The notes below the pieces were generated by a model. The model ran no database searches. It saw only the letters and a list, made by a program, of their open reading frames with translations, and was not told the origin of the DNA. 64,000 bases of DNA, taken from positions 1-64,000 of the forward strand of contig CALLOA010000008.1 of NCBI GenBank assembly GCA_938005265.1, written 5' to 3'. This stretch comes from an uncultured Granulosicoccaceae bacterium. GTDB taxonomy: Bacteria; Pseudomonadota; Gammaproteobacteria; Granulosicoccales; Granulosicoccaceae. The position numbers and the translations under genes were made by a program. Positions 3,511 to 10,662 of the stretch are shown here, piece after piece. Position 1 is the stretch's first letter, and each line of letters opens with the position of its first letter.

Positions 3511-5217
3511 TCAATACTTTCGTATCATTGAAAAGTGCGAGGAAGTGATAATCCTCAACAGCAATAGCATCAGCAGAACAAGGCCCGAAGCTCCTGATCC
3601 GCCACTTCCTCCGGTAACAGTCGCGCTCGACTGACTACGCTGTTCTTCTCGTGTTAGCGCATCAGGGTCGTTTCTCAGATTGTCACCAAAGGCGACAACC
3701 GTACCAACACCATTCTCCATTCTTGAGCGAATTGAATTGAATTGTCTATCAGGCCCTTCCTGAAATACTTCAGGTTCAGCGATTTGGTGTACTACACTTT
3801 CATCTCCAATCGTAAATACTACAATTCTTTCGTCTCGATTAGTTTCAATGGATGTAAGGTAGAATTCGTCCAGCAAGGGTACAGTCTGGAAGTTGTTACA
3901 TAACTCACCACTTGCAAGTAAAGGTGTTGAATCAAAATCAGGCGCGCCGGTATCAAAGCGCTGCAGGCAGTATCGAGCTCCCGTACTACGGTCAGGATTC
4001 ATAAATATTTCTATCCGTGCCCATGCCAAACCAACGCCAGTCTCATCTAAACCACCATCAGCAAAAACATCGTACTGACTACCGGAAAGCCGAACCATCG
4101 CCGTTGCAGGTTCAGCATCATTTACCACCTCAAAAACGGTCTCACTTCTAAGGCTCATTAGTGCCTCAAGATAATCGGCTTCTCCTTCAAGGTTCAGCCT
4201 TGATTGCACCACTTCACCATCAACCGAACTAACTGTCATATTCACAGTACCGTCGACTATCGAGGGCCGGCGGTCGCCAATACCTCTAATTATCCGTTGA
4301 TCTTCGTTATTACTCAGTAATGGTGCAAGCGGTGAGCCGTTAACACGAAAATCATCGACAAAACTGTCAGTTTCTACTGCGAAAATGTTTACTACAGACA
4401 CATCTCCTTCGCCTTCTGTTGATACGTCAATAATTGATGGCTGCTCAAACGAACGCAAATTTGTATCCGTAGGAAATTGCACAACCATTGATTCACCATT
4501 AACACTGGCGGTCAAAACAGAGGTTTCACGATTGATAGATAATGCCAGCTCATAAATGCCACCTAATTCGGGAATTGTTAACGGAAAACTGGCACAATCG
4601 TTAGAATTTCCATCCAATATCAAATATTCCTGCAAACGCCCGTCCGCATCACGCTCGTCAAAGCACAGTTGCACCTGACTACCTTCCGGCCTGATTTTTA
4701 TCCTCAAATCTGATCTGACATTCCCCTCTTCTTGCGTAACACCTTCACGATCCGGGAATCCTCCATCAACACGGGAATTATGAAAATAATGCAATAAACG
4801 AATTCTCAGTTCACCCGTTTCGCTGATCGTGCTTGACACATCAGGCTGAACAATTGCACTGAACAACGTATCGATCCCGCTATCAGTATTGTATGGTGAT
4901 TCGAATGTCATGGCGCGATGAGCTGAGTTTGAATCGCCCGCTGCTCTTAGCTGAATTGAATTATCAAGCCTGATTATTTCACTTCCCGCAGATAAGTCAC
5001 CTATTTCATCATCATCCCAATATCCAACAGTCCAGAGATTGGTTTCGTTACTGAAGTCTTCCGCAAACGGATCTGCCATTACAAACGTGGGTAAGGACAG
5101 AATGAAAAGCAAGAATGATTTAGTAGCTCTGTTGGTAAACAGTCGAGCCGATAATCGCAATAAAACAGTGCCGGTAAAGCACTTTTCGGTAGGGAAAAAA
5201 ACCATAGAAAACTCCAT
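3511..5217 (-). CDS. Secreted/surface protein paralog A with Gly-rich plus hydrophobic C-terminal tail
   Basis: Signal-like N-terminus; ends ...TVTGGSGGSGASGLVLLMLLLLRIITSSHFSMIRKY (GlyGly-CTERM-like). Shares GTVxxxxDNxRNDPxALTxEE with the 5486-7123 ORF. Confidence 0.7.
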   Translation of the reverse strand: MEFSMVFFPTEKCFTGTVLLRLSARLFTNRATKSFLLFILSLPTFVMADPFAEDFSNETNLWTVGYWDDDEIGDLSAGSEIIRLDNSIQLRAAGDSNSAHRAMTFESPYNTDSGIDTLFSAIVQPDVSSTISETGELRIRLLHYFHNSRVDGGFPDREGVTQEEGNVRSDLRIKIRPEGSQVQLCFDERDADGRLQEYLILDGNSNDCASFPLTIPELGGIYELALSINRETSVLTASVNGESMVVQFPTDTNLRSFEQPSIIDVSTEGEGDVSVVNIFAVETDSFVDDFRVNGSPLAPLLSNNEDQRIIRGIGDRRPSIVDGTVNMTVSSVDGEVVQSRLNLEGEADYLEALMSLRSETVFEVVNDAEPATAMVRLSGSQYDVFADGGLDETGVGLAWARIEIFMNPDRSTGARYCLQRFDTGAPDFDSTPLLASGELCNNFQTVPLLDEFYLTSIETNRDERIVVFTIGDESVVHQIAEPEVFQEGPDRQFNSIRSRMENGVGTVVAFGDNLRNDPDALTREEQRSQSSATVTGGSGGSGASGLVLLMLLLLRIITSSHFSMIRKY

Positions 5218-5320
5218 TGTTAATAAAACACAATGACTTCCATGTCGTTGAACTTTAATTATTTTGCTTTCGAGTTGATTCGTTCAACTAAAGTCTTATC
5301 GGCATAAATCAAATCACAAC

Positions 5321-5339
5321 CATCACCCTTTCAGGGGAA
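5321..5339. promoter_or_regulatory. Putative operator copy 1: CATCACCCTTTCAGGGGAA
   Basis: Dyad shared with 7219-7237 and 8378-8396; 104 bp upstream of the 5217 start. Confidence 0.45.
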
Positions 5340-5485
5340 AGGAAAAGCAATTTTCCACTTGTTGGAAAGAAATGTGATCTACTCACTATGTCGATTTGTA
5401 CCAACTGCTTTCCTGATATTGCATCAGAAAAACCAACCCCGAGCCAACATCGACCCGGGAGCTGGCATGGCATTTACTGCATACC

Positions 5486-7123
5486 TTAAAATATCTGCCG
5501 TCCGAGAATACGGAGAATTAGAACCAAATTTTTTCTGCGCCGGTAAAATAGATAAGTAGATGCAAACAACACTAAAGCTGGCAAGAGAGGATCGAATACT
5601 GACCTGTCTGCTATCGAACAGCCTCCACCACCCCCAGAGGTTAGGCTCGCTGCAAGTTCCTCGTCAGTGAGCGCTGCAGGATCGTTGCGTACATTATCGA
5701 ACAAACCAATAACGGTTCCTGTCGCGCCTCTCGCTATGCGGGATTGAGCCCGAACCGTTTCGCCGCGTGGAAAAATAGCAGAGTTTATAGGCAGCACCTT
5801 TGTTTCATTTCCAAGGGTAAAGATAAGAGCTCTAGCCTCTTGATCCAGATCAATTGACGCTTTATAAACTGTATCTTCCTCAACCTGCAGATCAAAAGTA
5901 GGACAACGATCATTATCTTCCCCGTCTGCCAAATCTGTAGTAACCGAGAAGTCAGCGGCATCAGAACGAATTGCACAATACTCCCCAACCAGAGCTCCGT
6001 CCGGATTTTTGATTAGCATGACGCTGGACCACACCTCGCCATTGCTGTCTTCCGGATCACTTGAGAATTCGTTATAGAAAACCCCGGAAATCCTAACCGC
6101 CGCAAAGCCTTCGCCCAGATCAACGTCTGAGTCGCTGGAGTAGAGCATTTCGGCCTCAAGGTATTCGGTCGCATTAGCCAATCGAAGAAAAGTATCGTTA
6201 TCAGAATTCGTGTCCGAGTTACTAACACTCAGCAATAGTTGCTCATTTACAATGCGTTTATCCCGTTCGGTATCAGCAGAAAAATCATCGAAGTCCCCGG
6301 TTCTGTAGCGCCCTTCCTCAGATGCCACAGCCAGCTCAATTGAACCCCAATTGGTAGAGATACTGTTTACAGAAAATTCGGCATTGTTGGCACCGTCTCG
6401 AACCCGAGCTCTGGCCAGATAGAATGGCGCTGCCACATCAAACATCTCTGTTGGTGCATCTATACGAATTTCTTCCTCATTTACACGCACAAACATCTGG
6501 CCGGCTTCCTCATCTATGCCCACCATCATGTTGTAGGTTGTATTTAGCTCTGGTACTAGCTCAAGGGTTGAGCAGTCTTCCATTCCCTCGACAGCTGGTT
6601 CGAATCCACCATCGGCCGTACGGTTTTCAAAGCAATACAGGAAGTGATCCTCACTGGGGTCTGCATACAGATAAACCTCAACATAGATGTTGACGTCTCC
6701 ATACCGGCGATCAAGTGATTCGTCGTCCTGTGCGGGACCACCGTCCGTAATGCTGTTATAAAACCTGCCCTGGATTGAATAACCTACCCTACCAGATTCC
6801 GGTCTTGTGGAGCTTGTCGTTACGCTGCTCTCTAACTGTTGCAGTACACCAGAGGGCTGGATATTAAATTCTCCTCTTTCATCATCAGTCGGATCAATAT
6901 CAACAATGGTCAATTGCAATTGACCGTTTGCGAACTTCGCCGGATCGACATTTTCGACAAGATTCCTGGCTTCGGTTCGAAAATTGATATTCACAAAATC
7001 TAGCGAGAAATCATCTGCAAAAACAGTATCTTGAGCTTGTACAGAGGTTACAGCACCTGTCAACAGACATGATGCTATTGCGACACCGGTAATTTTCGAT
7101 TGATATTTTTTTCTGACCTTCAT
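5486..7123 (-). CDS. Secreted/surface protein paralog B with JDVT-CTERM-like sorting tail
   Basis: Signal peptide MKVRKKYQSKITGVAIASCLLTGAVTSVQAQ; C-terminus GGGGGCSIADRSVFDPLLPALVLFASTYLFYRRRK (Gly/Cys motif, TM helix, Arg cluster). Confidence 0.75.
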   Translation of the reverse strand: MKVRKKYQSKITGVAIASCLLTGAVTSVQAQDTVFADDFSLDFVNINFRTEARNLVENVDPAKFANGQLQLTIVDIDPTDDERGEFNIQPSGVLQQLESSVTTSSTRPESGRVGYSIQGRFYNSITDGGPAQDDESLDRRYGDVNIYVEVYLYADPSEDHFLYCFENRTADGGFEPAVEGMEDCSTLELVPELNTTYNMMVGIDEEAGQMFVRVNEEEIRIDAPTEMFDVAAPFYLARARVRDGANNAEFSVNSISTNWGSIELAVASEEGRYRTGDFDDFSADTERDKRIVNEQLLLSVSNSDTNSDNDTFLRLANATEYLEAEMLYSSDSDVDLGEGFAAVRISGVFYNEFSSDPEDSNGEVWSSVMLIKNPDGALVGEYCAIRSDAADFSVTTDLADGEDNDRCPTFDLQVEEDTVYKASIDLDQEARALIFTLGNETKVLPINSAIFPRGETVRAQSRIARGATGTVIGLFDNVRNDPAALTDEELAASLTSGGGGGCSIADRSVFDPLLPALVLFASTYLFYRRRKNLVLILRILGRQIF

Positions 7124-7218
7124 TTTTTTCCCTTTCAGATAATTATTGTTTTCCGTGCTTCCAGCTCATTCATTCATCGGATAAGCGGTCTCAATTTTAA
7201 AAAACACAAAAAACAACG

Positions 7219-7237
7219 CATCACCCGATTGGGGGAT
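7219..7237. promoter_or_regulatory. Putative operator copy 2: CATCACCCGATTGGGGGAT
   Basis: Same dyad; 96 bp upstream of the 7123 start and inside the divergent region with the 7413 regulator. Confidence 0.5.
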
Positions 7238-7412
7238 GAAATCTGAATATGTGCTGCCTATCCTTATATCAGTACCGTTTTGATAGGCATCTGTGACGCA
7301 CCCTGGTTAACAACATTACTTTTTGTGACATTCAACCACAGACATTCTGTGAACAGGTCTCTATACAAATCACTAAAATATATAAATTGCAGCAGCTAGT
7401 TAAGGAAAACCA

Positions 7413-8054
7413 TTGCTTGAGAATAACTACCAGGCTATTTTGGCAGTACTTGATCAATTGTATTTGGGTTTGTGTATTACCCGTGTGGATAACGTTGTGA
7501 TAGTGCGCAATGCAATGGCAGAAAGGATTTTGTTTACACACAGCGCTATAAAATTGGCACAGGACAGCAGACTGATCTGCCGTGACGCCGACAAGCAAAG
7601 ATCTCTGGAGGAAGCTTTACTATCCGCTTGCTCTGACGAATCTAGCTCGAATCATTCAAATGAAATTTTGATATCTAATGACCAAAATTGCGAACAACAT
7701 CCGCTACTAATCGAAGTATCTCCACTAAAAGATACATCTGTTGTTCACGAAGATACCACAAGGCTCGCACTGATCTCACTGCTCGACCCACAACAGATTT
7801 TGAAGTCAGACCCTACGAAAACAGCTCTTGTATTTGGTCTTACAGCAGCAGAATCAGCTGTGTGCCAGATGTTGGTTGATGGGAACACCACATCCGATAT
7901 AGCAGACCAACGTGGCGTGAGTACGGAAACAATCAAGAGCCAGATAAAGGCGGTGTTAAGGAAGTGCCACTGTAAAAAACGTTCAGACTTGATCCGGCAG
8001 GTCTGGTCACTTACCAGCCCAATGACATGCCGTATGGTCGCTTCTAAACAATAG
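7413..8054 (+). CDS. LuxR-type HTH regulator, short paralog lacking the N-terminal region
   Basis: TTG start after an AAGGA; C-terminal LTAAESAVCQMLVDGNTTSDIADQRGVSTETIKSQIKAVLRKCHCKKRSDLIRQV; aligns to the C-terminal half of the 8878-10035 protein. Confidence 0.75.
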   Translation: MLENNYQAILAVLDQLYLGLCITRVDNVVIVRNAMAERILFTHSAIKLAQDSRLICRDADKQRSLEEALLSACSDESSSNHSNEILISNDQNCEQHPLLIEVSPLKDTSVVHEDTTRLALISLLDPQQILKSDPTKTALVFGLTAAESAVCQMLVDGNTTSDIADQRGVSTETIKSQIKAVLRKCHCKKRSDLIRQVWSLTSPMTCRMVASKQ

Positions 8055-8072
8055 AATTAAACTATTTAGAAG

Positions 8073-8177
8073 CTAAAAATGTGTATCTGGTTCAGCCGAT
8101 GTAACCTCAAGAGTAGTTTGGCAGGCTGTACCAACCAGAATGAATGAAACCATAAATCCGAGCATAATTCTTTTCAT
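8073..8177 (-). CDS. Small predicted lipoprotein (34 aa), not in the supplied ORF track
   Basis: Hand translation: MKRIMLGFMVSFILVGTACQTTLEVTSAEPDTHF*; lipobox VGTAC. Confidence 0.5.
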   Translation of the reverse strand: MKRIMLGFMVSFILVGTACQTTLEVTSAEPDTHF

Positions 8178-8223
8178 TCTGTATCCGCGGTTTCATGTTC
8201 AATCTGAACCATGAATATTTTTC

Positions 8224-8304
8224 AAAATATTTTGGGGATCACCTGTTTCCCTGACTATGAATAACCTACCATGGCTTGATTCCATGGCAATCCCCAAAAT
8301 TTTT
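8224..8304. other. Long stem-loop (putative structured leader or RNA)
   Basis: ATTTTGGGGAT (8229-8239) pairs with ATCCCCAAAAT (8290-8300), extendable by A/T pairs; inner CCATGG...CCATGG repeat. Confidence 0.45.
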
Positions 8305-8377
8305 ATAGCAATGCAATGTCTACGACACAGCTGCATGTAGTGTTCTATTTAAATCTAGCTAACTTGGTGTCTGGTTT

Positions 8378-8396
8378 CATCACCCACATGGGGGAT
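8378..8396. promoter_or_regulatory. Putative operator copy 3: CATCACCCACATGGGGGAT
   Basis: Same dyad as at 5321 and 7219; in the long intergenic region between 8177(-) and 8878(+). Confidence 0.5.
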
Positions 8397-8630
8397 ATGT
8401 TGAAGTAAATTTGTAAAGTAAATCGCAAAAAGCATTTTTAGTTGCAGGGCATGGCTGCAATAGAGGGAACATCCGACAACGAGCAGGGCAAAATTCGTAA
8501 TATTTTTGAAACCAGACAAAGCTAAGCAAGAAATGAGAAATTATTGATCAATAAATCTCAGGGTAATTCAGCTCACCATTAGACGAATGATTTATTCCAT
8601 GGCGCGTCCAAACTTGCTTTCCAAACCTTA

Positions 8631-8668
8631 TCTATACAAAATCTATACAAATCAAAATCTATACAAAT
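8631..8668. repeat. Three direct repeats of TCTATACAAA
   Basis: Copies at 8631, 8642 and 8658; CTATACAAAT also at 7361-7370 upstream of the paralogous regulator. Confidence 0.6.
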
Positions 8669-8877
8669 TCCGAATTATATACAGTTTGATAATGGTTTAA
8701 AATTGGGACGACAGATATTTGTAGTGTCTATAATATTTAAATAAGATTAGCTCTTGGTGATCAGAAAAGGAAACAGCATGCGTTTTCAGATAACGCATGG
8801 AACAACATAAATGATTAGAGTGGTGATGTAATTGTTGTAGGCCGCCTGTTTTGAATCAGAAAAGTAGGATTTTAACA

Positions 8878-10035
8878 ATGCTCGCCCACGAAGACTCACT
8901 TTCTGTGCTACCCGACATCTATGATTCCGCAGTTGAATCAAGTATTTGGGGAAACACTCTCGAAAAGAGCGCGCATGCCCTAGGGGCTAGAGGCGCAATT
9001 CTCTTAATCATTGATCAGCGCCCTGAGGGACGATATCAGGTTAATCACTTCAGTAGAATCTGGTCTCGGGCACCCGAAAGAGCAGCTATGTACACTGAGA
9101 AATATGGGCACTATGAGAAACCTGTGTGGGACCATTTATTTACCAATCCCAAACAGAATTTAATCCTCGATACGGATTTCTGGGCGAATGAACCAGACTT
9201 GAGGAACAGACCTGACTACCAATATCTGAGTGAAAACGTTGGAATAGTCCATAAGTGTGCTGCACGCTTAAACGACAATATGAGCTGGTGGGACACACTC
9301 GTCGTACATTTTGACCAGAAATTAAAAGCCATCCCAGCCGATAGTGTCGCCGGCATCAAACAATTGCTTCCCCACGTTGCCAAATCAGTCGAACTATCTC
9401 GCACGTTCGATATATTGAAAGAACAATACAATGCAGTTTTAGCTGCTCTGGATCATGTAGAGATTGGTATGTGTATCGCCTTACAAAACGGTGATCTTGT
9501 GGTGCGCAATGCCGAAGCCAATCGTATACTGGGAGAAAAAGACGGGCTTCGCTTGTCGTCTCAGGGCAAGTTGTTCAGCCATCAACCAGAACGAAATGCT
9601 CAACTTCAAAAAGCCATTGAAGAAGCCAGTCAAACTGCTATCGGTAAAAATTTGACACACGAATTTCTGTTTGTAAATGAGAGGAAATCAACAGAGGATC
9701 CCCTACTCATTGAGGTTGCACCTTTGACTGATTATTCCGGTGAACTGGAAAATCAAATGAAAGGAGCCCTTGTTACCTTGATCGATCCGGCCAACACTCA
9801 ACCTTTTTCTGTTGACAGGGCCGTAATCGCTTACCAGCTGACAAAAGCTGAAGGCGAAGTCTGCCAATTGCTCGTTGAAGGGAATGCCACCTCAGTTATA
9901 GCCGAGATCCGGAGTGTGAGTCCGGAAACAATAAAAACACAGGTCAAATCAATTTTCCGCAAGACGGCCTGCACTCGTCGCTCCGATCTGATTCGGCTTG
10001 TACTTAAAACCACGCCACCAATTAGTCAATCATAA
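8878..10035 (+). CDS. LuxR-type HTH transcriptional regulator, full-length paralog
   Basis: ATG at 8878 with upstream AGGA (ORF opens at TTG 8851); C-terminal LTKAEGEVCQLLVEGNATSVIAEIRSVSPETIKTQVKSIFRKTACTRRSDLIRLV. Confidence 0.8.
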   Translation: MLAHEDSLSVLPDIYDSAVESSIWGNTLEKSAHALGARGAILLIIDQRPEGRYQVNHFSRIWSRAPERAAMYTEKYGHYEKPVWDHLFTNPKQNLILDTDFWANEPDLRNRPDYQYLSENVGIVHKCAARLNDNMSWWDTLVVHFDQKLKAIPADSVAGIKQLLPHVAKSVELSRTFDILKEQYNAVLAALDHVEIGMCIALQNGDLVVRNAEANRILGEKDGLRLSSQGKLFSHQPERNAQLQKAIEEASQTAIGKNLTHEFLFVNERKSTEDPLLIEVAPLTDYSGELENQMKGALVTLIDPANTQPFSVDRAVIAYQLTKAEGEVCQLLVEGNATSVIAEIRSVSPETIKTQVKSIFRKTACTRRSDLIRLVLKTTPPISQS

Positions 10036-10164
10036 GACTGTACATATATAAATACTTGTAGGCAAAGATCAGTAGAACCCGAAATTACCATTTTTATCAA
10101 TATGGCGCGGCAATGATTCGCAGCACTGTTTAGATTGCCATCATGTTTGAAGCTGTTTCCCGGT

Positions 10165-10662
10165 TCAATCCGCCTTTTGCAGCGTTTTCCAGTTTTTGTC
10201 CGCCTTTTCTATAATTTGCTCTGCACCTGCTGCTAGCTCGTCCCGCACCTTCTTATCATAGTTAAGGTAGAGTTTGCCCTCAACGATAAGCCAGGCTTCC
10301 GGGTCAATAGGTGCTTTTTGCCCGATCGAAATTCCACCAGCACAGAATCCACCAAATCGCGGTGCATACTGATCTGGACTAGTCTCGAACATCTGCTGGT
10401 GTTTCTTCGATGCAAAGCGCCATCGGGCACCATGCCATCTGAATTCATACTTTGAACTCCCTTTAACTGCCTTGCCTACAGTAAAATATGCAACCGGGTC
10501 ATAGCCCTTTATCGCGATGGAACGCCAGTTCTTGTTAACCGCCAACTCTTCACCTATAGCGATTGAACAAAGCCCAAAATAAATTGCGACGAGCAAAAAA
10601 CCAAACCTTGAGGAACTCGTCCGAGCACTTAACCGATGCGCCAAAGCAAATTTTGCGTTCAT
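10165..10662 (-). CDS. Secreted YHS-domain family protein
   Basis: Hydrophobic N-terminus; GYDPVAYFTVGKAVKGSSKYEFRWHGARWRFASKKHQQMFETSPDQYAPRFGGFCAGG. Confidence 0.8.
   Translation of the reverse strand: MNAKFALAHRLSARTSSSRFGFLLVAIYFGLCSIAIGEELAVNKNWRSIAIKGYDPVAYFTVGKAVKGSSKYEFRWHGARWRFASKKHQQMFETSPDQYAPRFGGFCAGGISIGQKAPIDPEAWLIVEGKLYLNYDKKVRDELAAGAEQIIEKADKNWKTLQKAD

Follow-up and report, generated by a model that had tools for sequence, protein, structure and literature searches.

A conserved palindrome beside LuxR-type regulator and surface-protein genes in Granulosicoccaceae

Genes and dyads of the window

The window, a stretch of 64 kb belonging to contig C8 of a 4.9-Mb marine Granulosicoccaceae genome that is 91% complete (G000), holds two paralogous genes for secreted proteins (A and B), a lipoprotein gene, a putative gene for a 34-aa lipoprotein and two LuxR-type regulator genes, together with three dyads that are candidate operators (Table 1). 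All three dyads were found exactly where an earlier sequence-only reading had located them, and the distances that it gave for the first two, 104 and 96 bp to the ATGs of the secreted proteins, were also correct.

When the whole genome was searched with ATCACCC-N4-RGGGGAW, the three window dyads were the only exact matches. Allowing one mismatch gave 8 places, mostly in or beside unrelated genes, which is close to the number that we estimate to be expected by chance (~5-6). The palindromic form, ATCMCCC-N4-GGGKGAT, was matched exactly only at sites 2 and 3, and the motif is thus neither frequent nor randomly placed in the genome; site 1 differed from this form at 2 positions, both in the right half. 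These genome-wide tests were pattern searches. A weight matrix, trained on the sites of other genomes with no window site included, was scored on the 64 kb and recovered the three dyads as ranks 1-3 (25.0, 25.0, and 13.7), the fourth place scoring 7.0. From the pattern counts and the matrix ranks and scores, we concluded that the dyads exceed chance and that the first copy is clearly weaker. With a loose pattern, no other good match turned up in the window, in line with the sequence-only reading, and no convincing further target was found in the rest of the genome, either among the one-mismatch places or in a search for a site plus a -10 hexamer with 2 mismatches. Rfam had no match at 4800-10300. 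A perfect 12-bp inverted repeat, TGTCTGGTTTCA (8368-8379 / 8507-8518), has a left arm that touches the start of site 3.

Table 1. Features of the window, with four-domain homologs of the secreted proteins in relatives
Feature	Position	Strand	Remarks
Lipoprotein, ~215 aa	2677..3327	-	downstream of protein A; lipobox LLTGC, read from sequence
Secreted protein A, 568 aa	3511..5217	-	paralog of B, 28% identity; Gly-rich hydrophobic C-terminus without the Cys
Site 1, degenerate candidate operator	5322..5339		upstream of secreted protein A; 2 mismatches; matrix 13.7, third in window
Terminator-like hairpin after protein B	5437..5460	-	consensus match only; separates B from site 1 and protein A
Secreted protein B, 545 aa	5486..7123	-	two predicted beta-sandwich domains and JDVT-CTERM sorting signal
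-10-like hexamer TAAAAT, secreted protein B promoter	7194..7199	-	20 bp past site 2
Site 2, exact candidate operator	7220..7237		between secreted protein B (-) and short LuxR regulator (+)
-10-like hexamer TATCCT, short regulator promoter	7259..7264	+	21 bp past site 2
TCTATACAAA, single copy	7360-7369		52 bp before short regulator
Short LuxR-type regulator, 213 aa	7413..8054	+	PAS-like region and GerE HTH; TTG start; GerE 1.8e-9
34-aa ORF, lipoprotein-like signal	8073..8177	-	lipobox VGTAC, less typical; sequence only, putative gene
-10-like hexamer TAGATT, toward 34-aa lipoprotein	8352..8357	-	21 bp past site 3
Site 3, exact candidate operator	8379..8396		between 34-aa lipoprotein ORF (-) and full-length regulator (+)
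TCTATACAAA, three tandem copies	8631-8640, 8642-8651, 8658-8667		219-246 bp before full-length regulator
Full-length LuxR-type regulator, 385 aa	8878..10035	+	N-terminal alpha/beta domain, PAS-like, GerE HTH; GerE 3.3e-8
Four-domain secreted homologs	L059 10929-14117; L063 1354-4407; L094; L106; L109		relatives

The sorting signal of protein B scored 47 bits against the JDVT-CTERM model NF033191 (cut-off 27), and MrtJ is encoded on another contig of the genome (NF033192, 102.8 bits, cut-off 75). By these two signs protein B is a predicted JDVT-CTERM sorted protein, while protein A had no match in Pfam or NCBIfam. A second JDVT-CTERM protein of the same genome, a 618-aa ORF (contig 32: 32028-32126; L013, L118), had no good operator copy in the stretch fetched. 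AlphaFold2 followed by Foldseek indicated that the sandwiches of protein B resemble galectin, laminin-G, legume-lectin, and alginate-lyase folds, with modest TM-scores; this model makes a beta-sandwich fold class likely, and to propose carbohydrate binding is no more than a guess. The window has two genes with two domains each; in relatives, the secreted protein is often a single four-domain chain of ~1000 aa. One of these four-domain homologs (L094) scored above the MYXO-CTERM cut-off and just under the JDVT one, and the tails of the other homologs were below the cut-offs or absent.

Judging from the hairpin after the gene of protein B, protein A would need a promoter of its own. The lipoprotein gene behind protein A is a probable extra member of the regulon, as judged by sequence comparison: its product shares 27-31% identity with site-bearing lipoproteins of relatives (L098, L108, L109), and a similar lipoprotein in G018 (L223) has a site ~90 bp upstream. 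The N-terminus of the 34-aa ORF is similar to that of a 72-aa site-bearing lipoprotein (L218 in G017). A 15-bp inverted repeat (8225-8239 / 8290-8304) lies between site 3 and the 34-aa ORF, whose putative leader folds better than shuffled sequences (z -2.6); the repeat may be either a leader structure or a terminator.

Occurrence of the palindrome in relatives

The exact palindrome occurred 31 times in 48 Granulosicoccaceae genomes, versus 1 time for the reversed pattern. Because hairpins raise the background of palindromes, the reversed pattern understates it, and we used the density in the class as a second control: 365 gammaproteobacterial genomes from outside the family contained 46 sites, which per Mb is, by our estimate, roughly one third as dense as in the family. 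The neighborhoods of the family sites, judged by reading, placed 22 of the 31 upstream of regulator orthologs, secreted-protein homologs, or lipoproteins, including one (L095) that lies 490 bp from its gene. As a baseline, these loci contain 386 ORFs with a length of 120 aa or more, of which 16 were lipoprotein-like, regulon members counted in.

About ten orthologs of the full-length regulator carry the palindrome upstream, mostly at 80-140 bp and in two cases at 310-370 bp, and the motif is thus conserved before orthologs; several other full-length orthologs in the family have no upstream site. The site-bearing orthologs fall into at least five branches of the regulator tree. Several of these branches are deep, and the operator is therefore probably ancient and was lost in places. 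Short regulator paralogs with a site were found in G008, G029, G006, and G023, the copy in G006 being weak. Two other families have strong full-length relatives, which lacked the site, and the named records with relatives of the regulator were only Granulosicoccaceae/Granulosicoccus MAGs. The sites of one genome outside the family (G168) were considered as true members and were not convincing. Taken together, the dyads are almost certainly a conserved operator of a small cell-surface regulon.

Position of the sites relative to -10 hexamers

We looked for -10 hexamers on both sides of every site, blind to orientation. TANNNT was found exactly 21 bp past the exact sites on 9 of 61 sides (background 0.013, p ~1e-7 before correction for 70 positions). 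With six near-sites added, which had been picked for adjoining regulator or target genes, the count was 13 of 73 sides (same background, p ~1e-11). Both p-values are optimistic, as some of the genomes are closely related. If TANNNT is the -10 element, the site extends from -51 to -34, with its center at -42.5. This is the classical activating position, at which the lux boxes of activators are centered (PMC3376562).

In the window, site 2 has -10-like hexamers on both sides, at 20 bp (-) and 21 bp (+), and therefore appears to serve both protein B and the short regulator; lying between two divergent promoters, it adds the short regulator to the targets. The interpretation given by the sequence-only reading is mostly supported, with the short regulator, and probably the ~215-aa lipoprotein, to be added as targets. 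Site 3 does lie, as had been noted, between the 34-aa ORF (201 bp to its ATG) and the full-length regulator (481 bp), but a correctly spaced -10 was found only toward the lipoprotein. No well-placed -10 was present between site 1 and protein A. The micro-regulon that had been proposed, of secreted paralogs, a lipoprotein, and LuxR regulators, is strongly supported by footprinting in relatives, site 1 being degenerate.

A search for a site plus a spaced -10, with one mismatch allowed, gave about 50 matches in the family versus 2 control matches. Applied to other genomes, the pattern has already pointed to additional target genes: 7 of 16 newly fetched places were typical, being upstream of secreted-protein homologs (L217, L224, L225), lipoproteins (L218, L223, L227), or a short regulator (L222).

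That the dyads are terminator hairpins or chance palindromes is most improbable. There is a real background of palindromes in other gammaproteobacteria (the 46 sites mentioned above), and a few family copies are terminator-like or lie inside genes (L088, L093, L102, L107). Against this, a matrix from other genomes recovered the window sites, and the target classes and the -10 spacing are conserved. At sites 2 and 3 terminator hairpins were ruled out, since both sites lie between divergent genes and no gene ends into them; this explanation does fit L088, L093, and L102 in relatives.

Activation and repression have to be weighed as well. The deduced position, -51 to -34, overlaps the -35 region, and a protein bound there could block RNA polymerase as a repressor. 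We consider this unlikely, because lux boxes have their textbook activator position at -42.5 (PMC3376562), and the -35 region is where PAS-LuxR activators bind (PMC9774167). Furthermore, in a promoter scan the -10 hexamers beside the sites were not part of any good sigma-70 promoter, which also argues against a repressor.

LuxR-type regulators and related systems

Both regulators scored above the gathering cut-off for GerE (PF00196) and are thus of the LuxR/GerE type. The short one aligns to residues 178-382 of the full-length one and has no N-terminal domain. The AlphaFold2 model of the full-length regulator (pLDDT 83) comprises an N-terminal alpha/beta domain, a long helix, a PAS-like domain, and an HTH, and its Foldseek matches included VqmA, EL222, bacteriophytochromes, and the ligand-binding domain of CepR2. 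Pfam gave nothing besides GerE in the two proteins, with neither an autoinducer-binding nor a PAS match, the PAS-like fold being seen in the model only. A luxI-type synthase (PF00765) was not found in the genome at its 91% completeness. In G011, the ortholog of the regulator is a fragment (L063 859-1203, ~69% identity over 118 residues) that adjoins the secreted-protein gene and appears to be a decayed copy or an assembly error.

We think it likely that the dyads are read by the local LuxR-type regulators, and that these activate a small surface regulon. Binding and activation upon binding are inferred from co-occurrence, adjacency, the GerE HTH, and the -42.5 position. Exact sites were commoner in genomes with the full-length regulator (25 of 31 sites, Fisher p = 0.008). 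The main weakness of this model lies in four genomes (G014, G018, G068, and G003) in which typical targets are preceded by good-looking sites and no full-length ortholog was detected. Such genomes would be expected if the palindrome were the conserved operator of another GerE-type regulator of the family, with the two local LuxR genes as targets rather than readers. This seems improbable to us: sites repeatedly adjoin regulator genes, as autoregulation predicts, the size of the dyad suits a GerE dimer, the co-occurrence is significant, and some of the genomes with a site only are incomplete MAGs.

With the local regulators as readers, the dyads would be operators of the LuxR-type (GerE HTH) family to which the 385-aa and 213-aa proteins belong. 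Bound as a dimer to ATCMCCC-N4-GGGKGAT, centered at about -42.5, a regulator would contact RNA polymerase in class II activation, at promoters that have a -10 and in which the bound site would replace a good -35. The regulon would be local in this genome: protein B and the short regulator would share the divergent site 2, site 3 would act on the 34-aa lipoprotein, and the weak site 1 would probably act on protein A and the lipoprotein behind it. Its products would be cell-surface proteins, namely lipoproteins and lectin-like sandwich proteins that carry a sorting tag at the C-terminus. As the full-length regulator of relatives often has a site in its own promoter, feedback is implied.

The regulon is an undescribed one of a known kind. 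LuxR, TraR, and CepR2 also combine a GerE HTH with an inverted-repeat operator, and the -42.5 center deduced here would agree with that of their lux boxes (PMC3376562). The CepR2 ligand-binding domain matched part of the full-length model with a TM-score of 0.63-0.67 by target length. In contrast to the acyl-homoserine-lactone (AHL) receptors of the LuxR type, the window operator has a sequence different from the lux box, the regulator has an extra PAS-like domain, and neither a Pfam autoinducer-binding match nor a luxI-type synthase goes with it. The PAS-LuxR regulators of Streptomyces (PimM family) likewise have a GerE HTH and a G/C-tract palindrome at the -35 region (PMC9774167), and their PAS domain would correspond to the PAS-like region predicted by the model; however, the PimM operator, CTVGGGAWWTCCCBAG, runs from GGG to CCC, whereas the window operator is CCC-N4-GGG with ATC and GAT outside. 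VqmA of Vibrio, among the best Foldseek matches, has PAS and LuxR HTH domains and a G/C-rich palindromic operator, AGGGGGGATTTCCCCCCT (PMC8284805), but its half-sites are oppositely directed and it has no counterpart of the N-terminal extra domain. As in known JDVT-CTERM/MrtJ systems, signal and protease are both above cut-off. The known neighborhood consists, however, of two genes, MrtJ and one JDVT-CTERM protein (PMC11980579), while here MrtJ is on another contig and its predicted target, protein B, lies beside LuxR genes. For an uncharacterized LuxR-type family in Granulosicoccaceae, the present data supply the sequence of an operator, the geometry of its promoters, and a list of targets, and they tie this family to surface proteins of the little-studied JDVT-CTERM sorting system.

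Granulosicoccus is much discussed as a kelp-associated bacterium, and kelp is a frequent habitat of the Granulosicoccaceae; the strain of the window may live on kelp. We would tentatively entertain, as a possible though doubtful scheme, a surface switch with two regulators that is nearly confined to Granulosicoccaceae, in which a sensor LuxR and its truncated paralog act on the same operator and their balance sets the display of lectin-like proteins and lipoproteins, perhaps when settling on algae.

Finally, the only four exact copies of TCTATACAAA that the 64 kb contains all lie upstream of the two regulators (Table 1). This sequence was not seen upstream of regulator orthologs, and from its placement in the window it is possibly a second control element.
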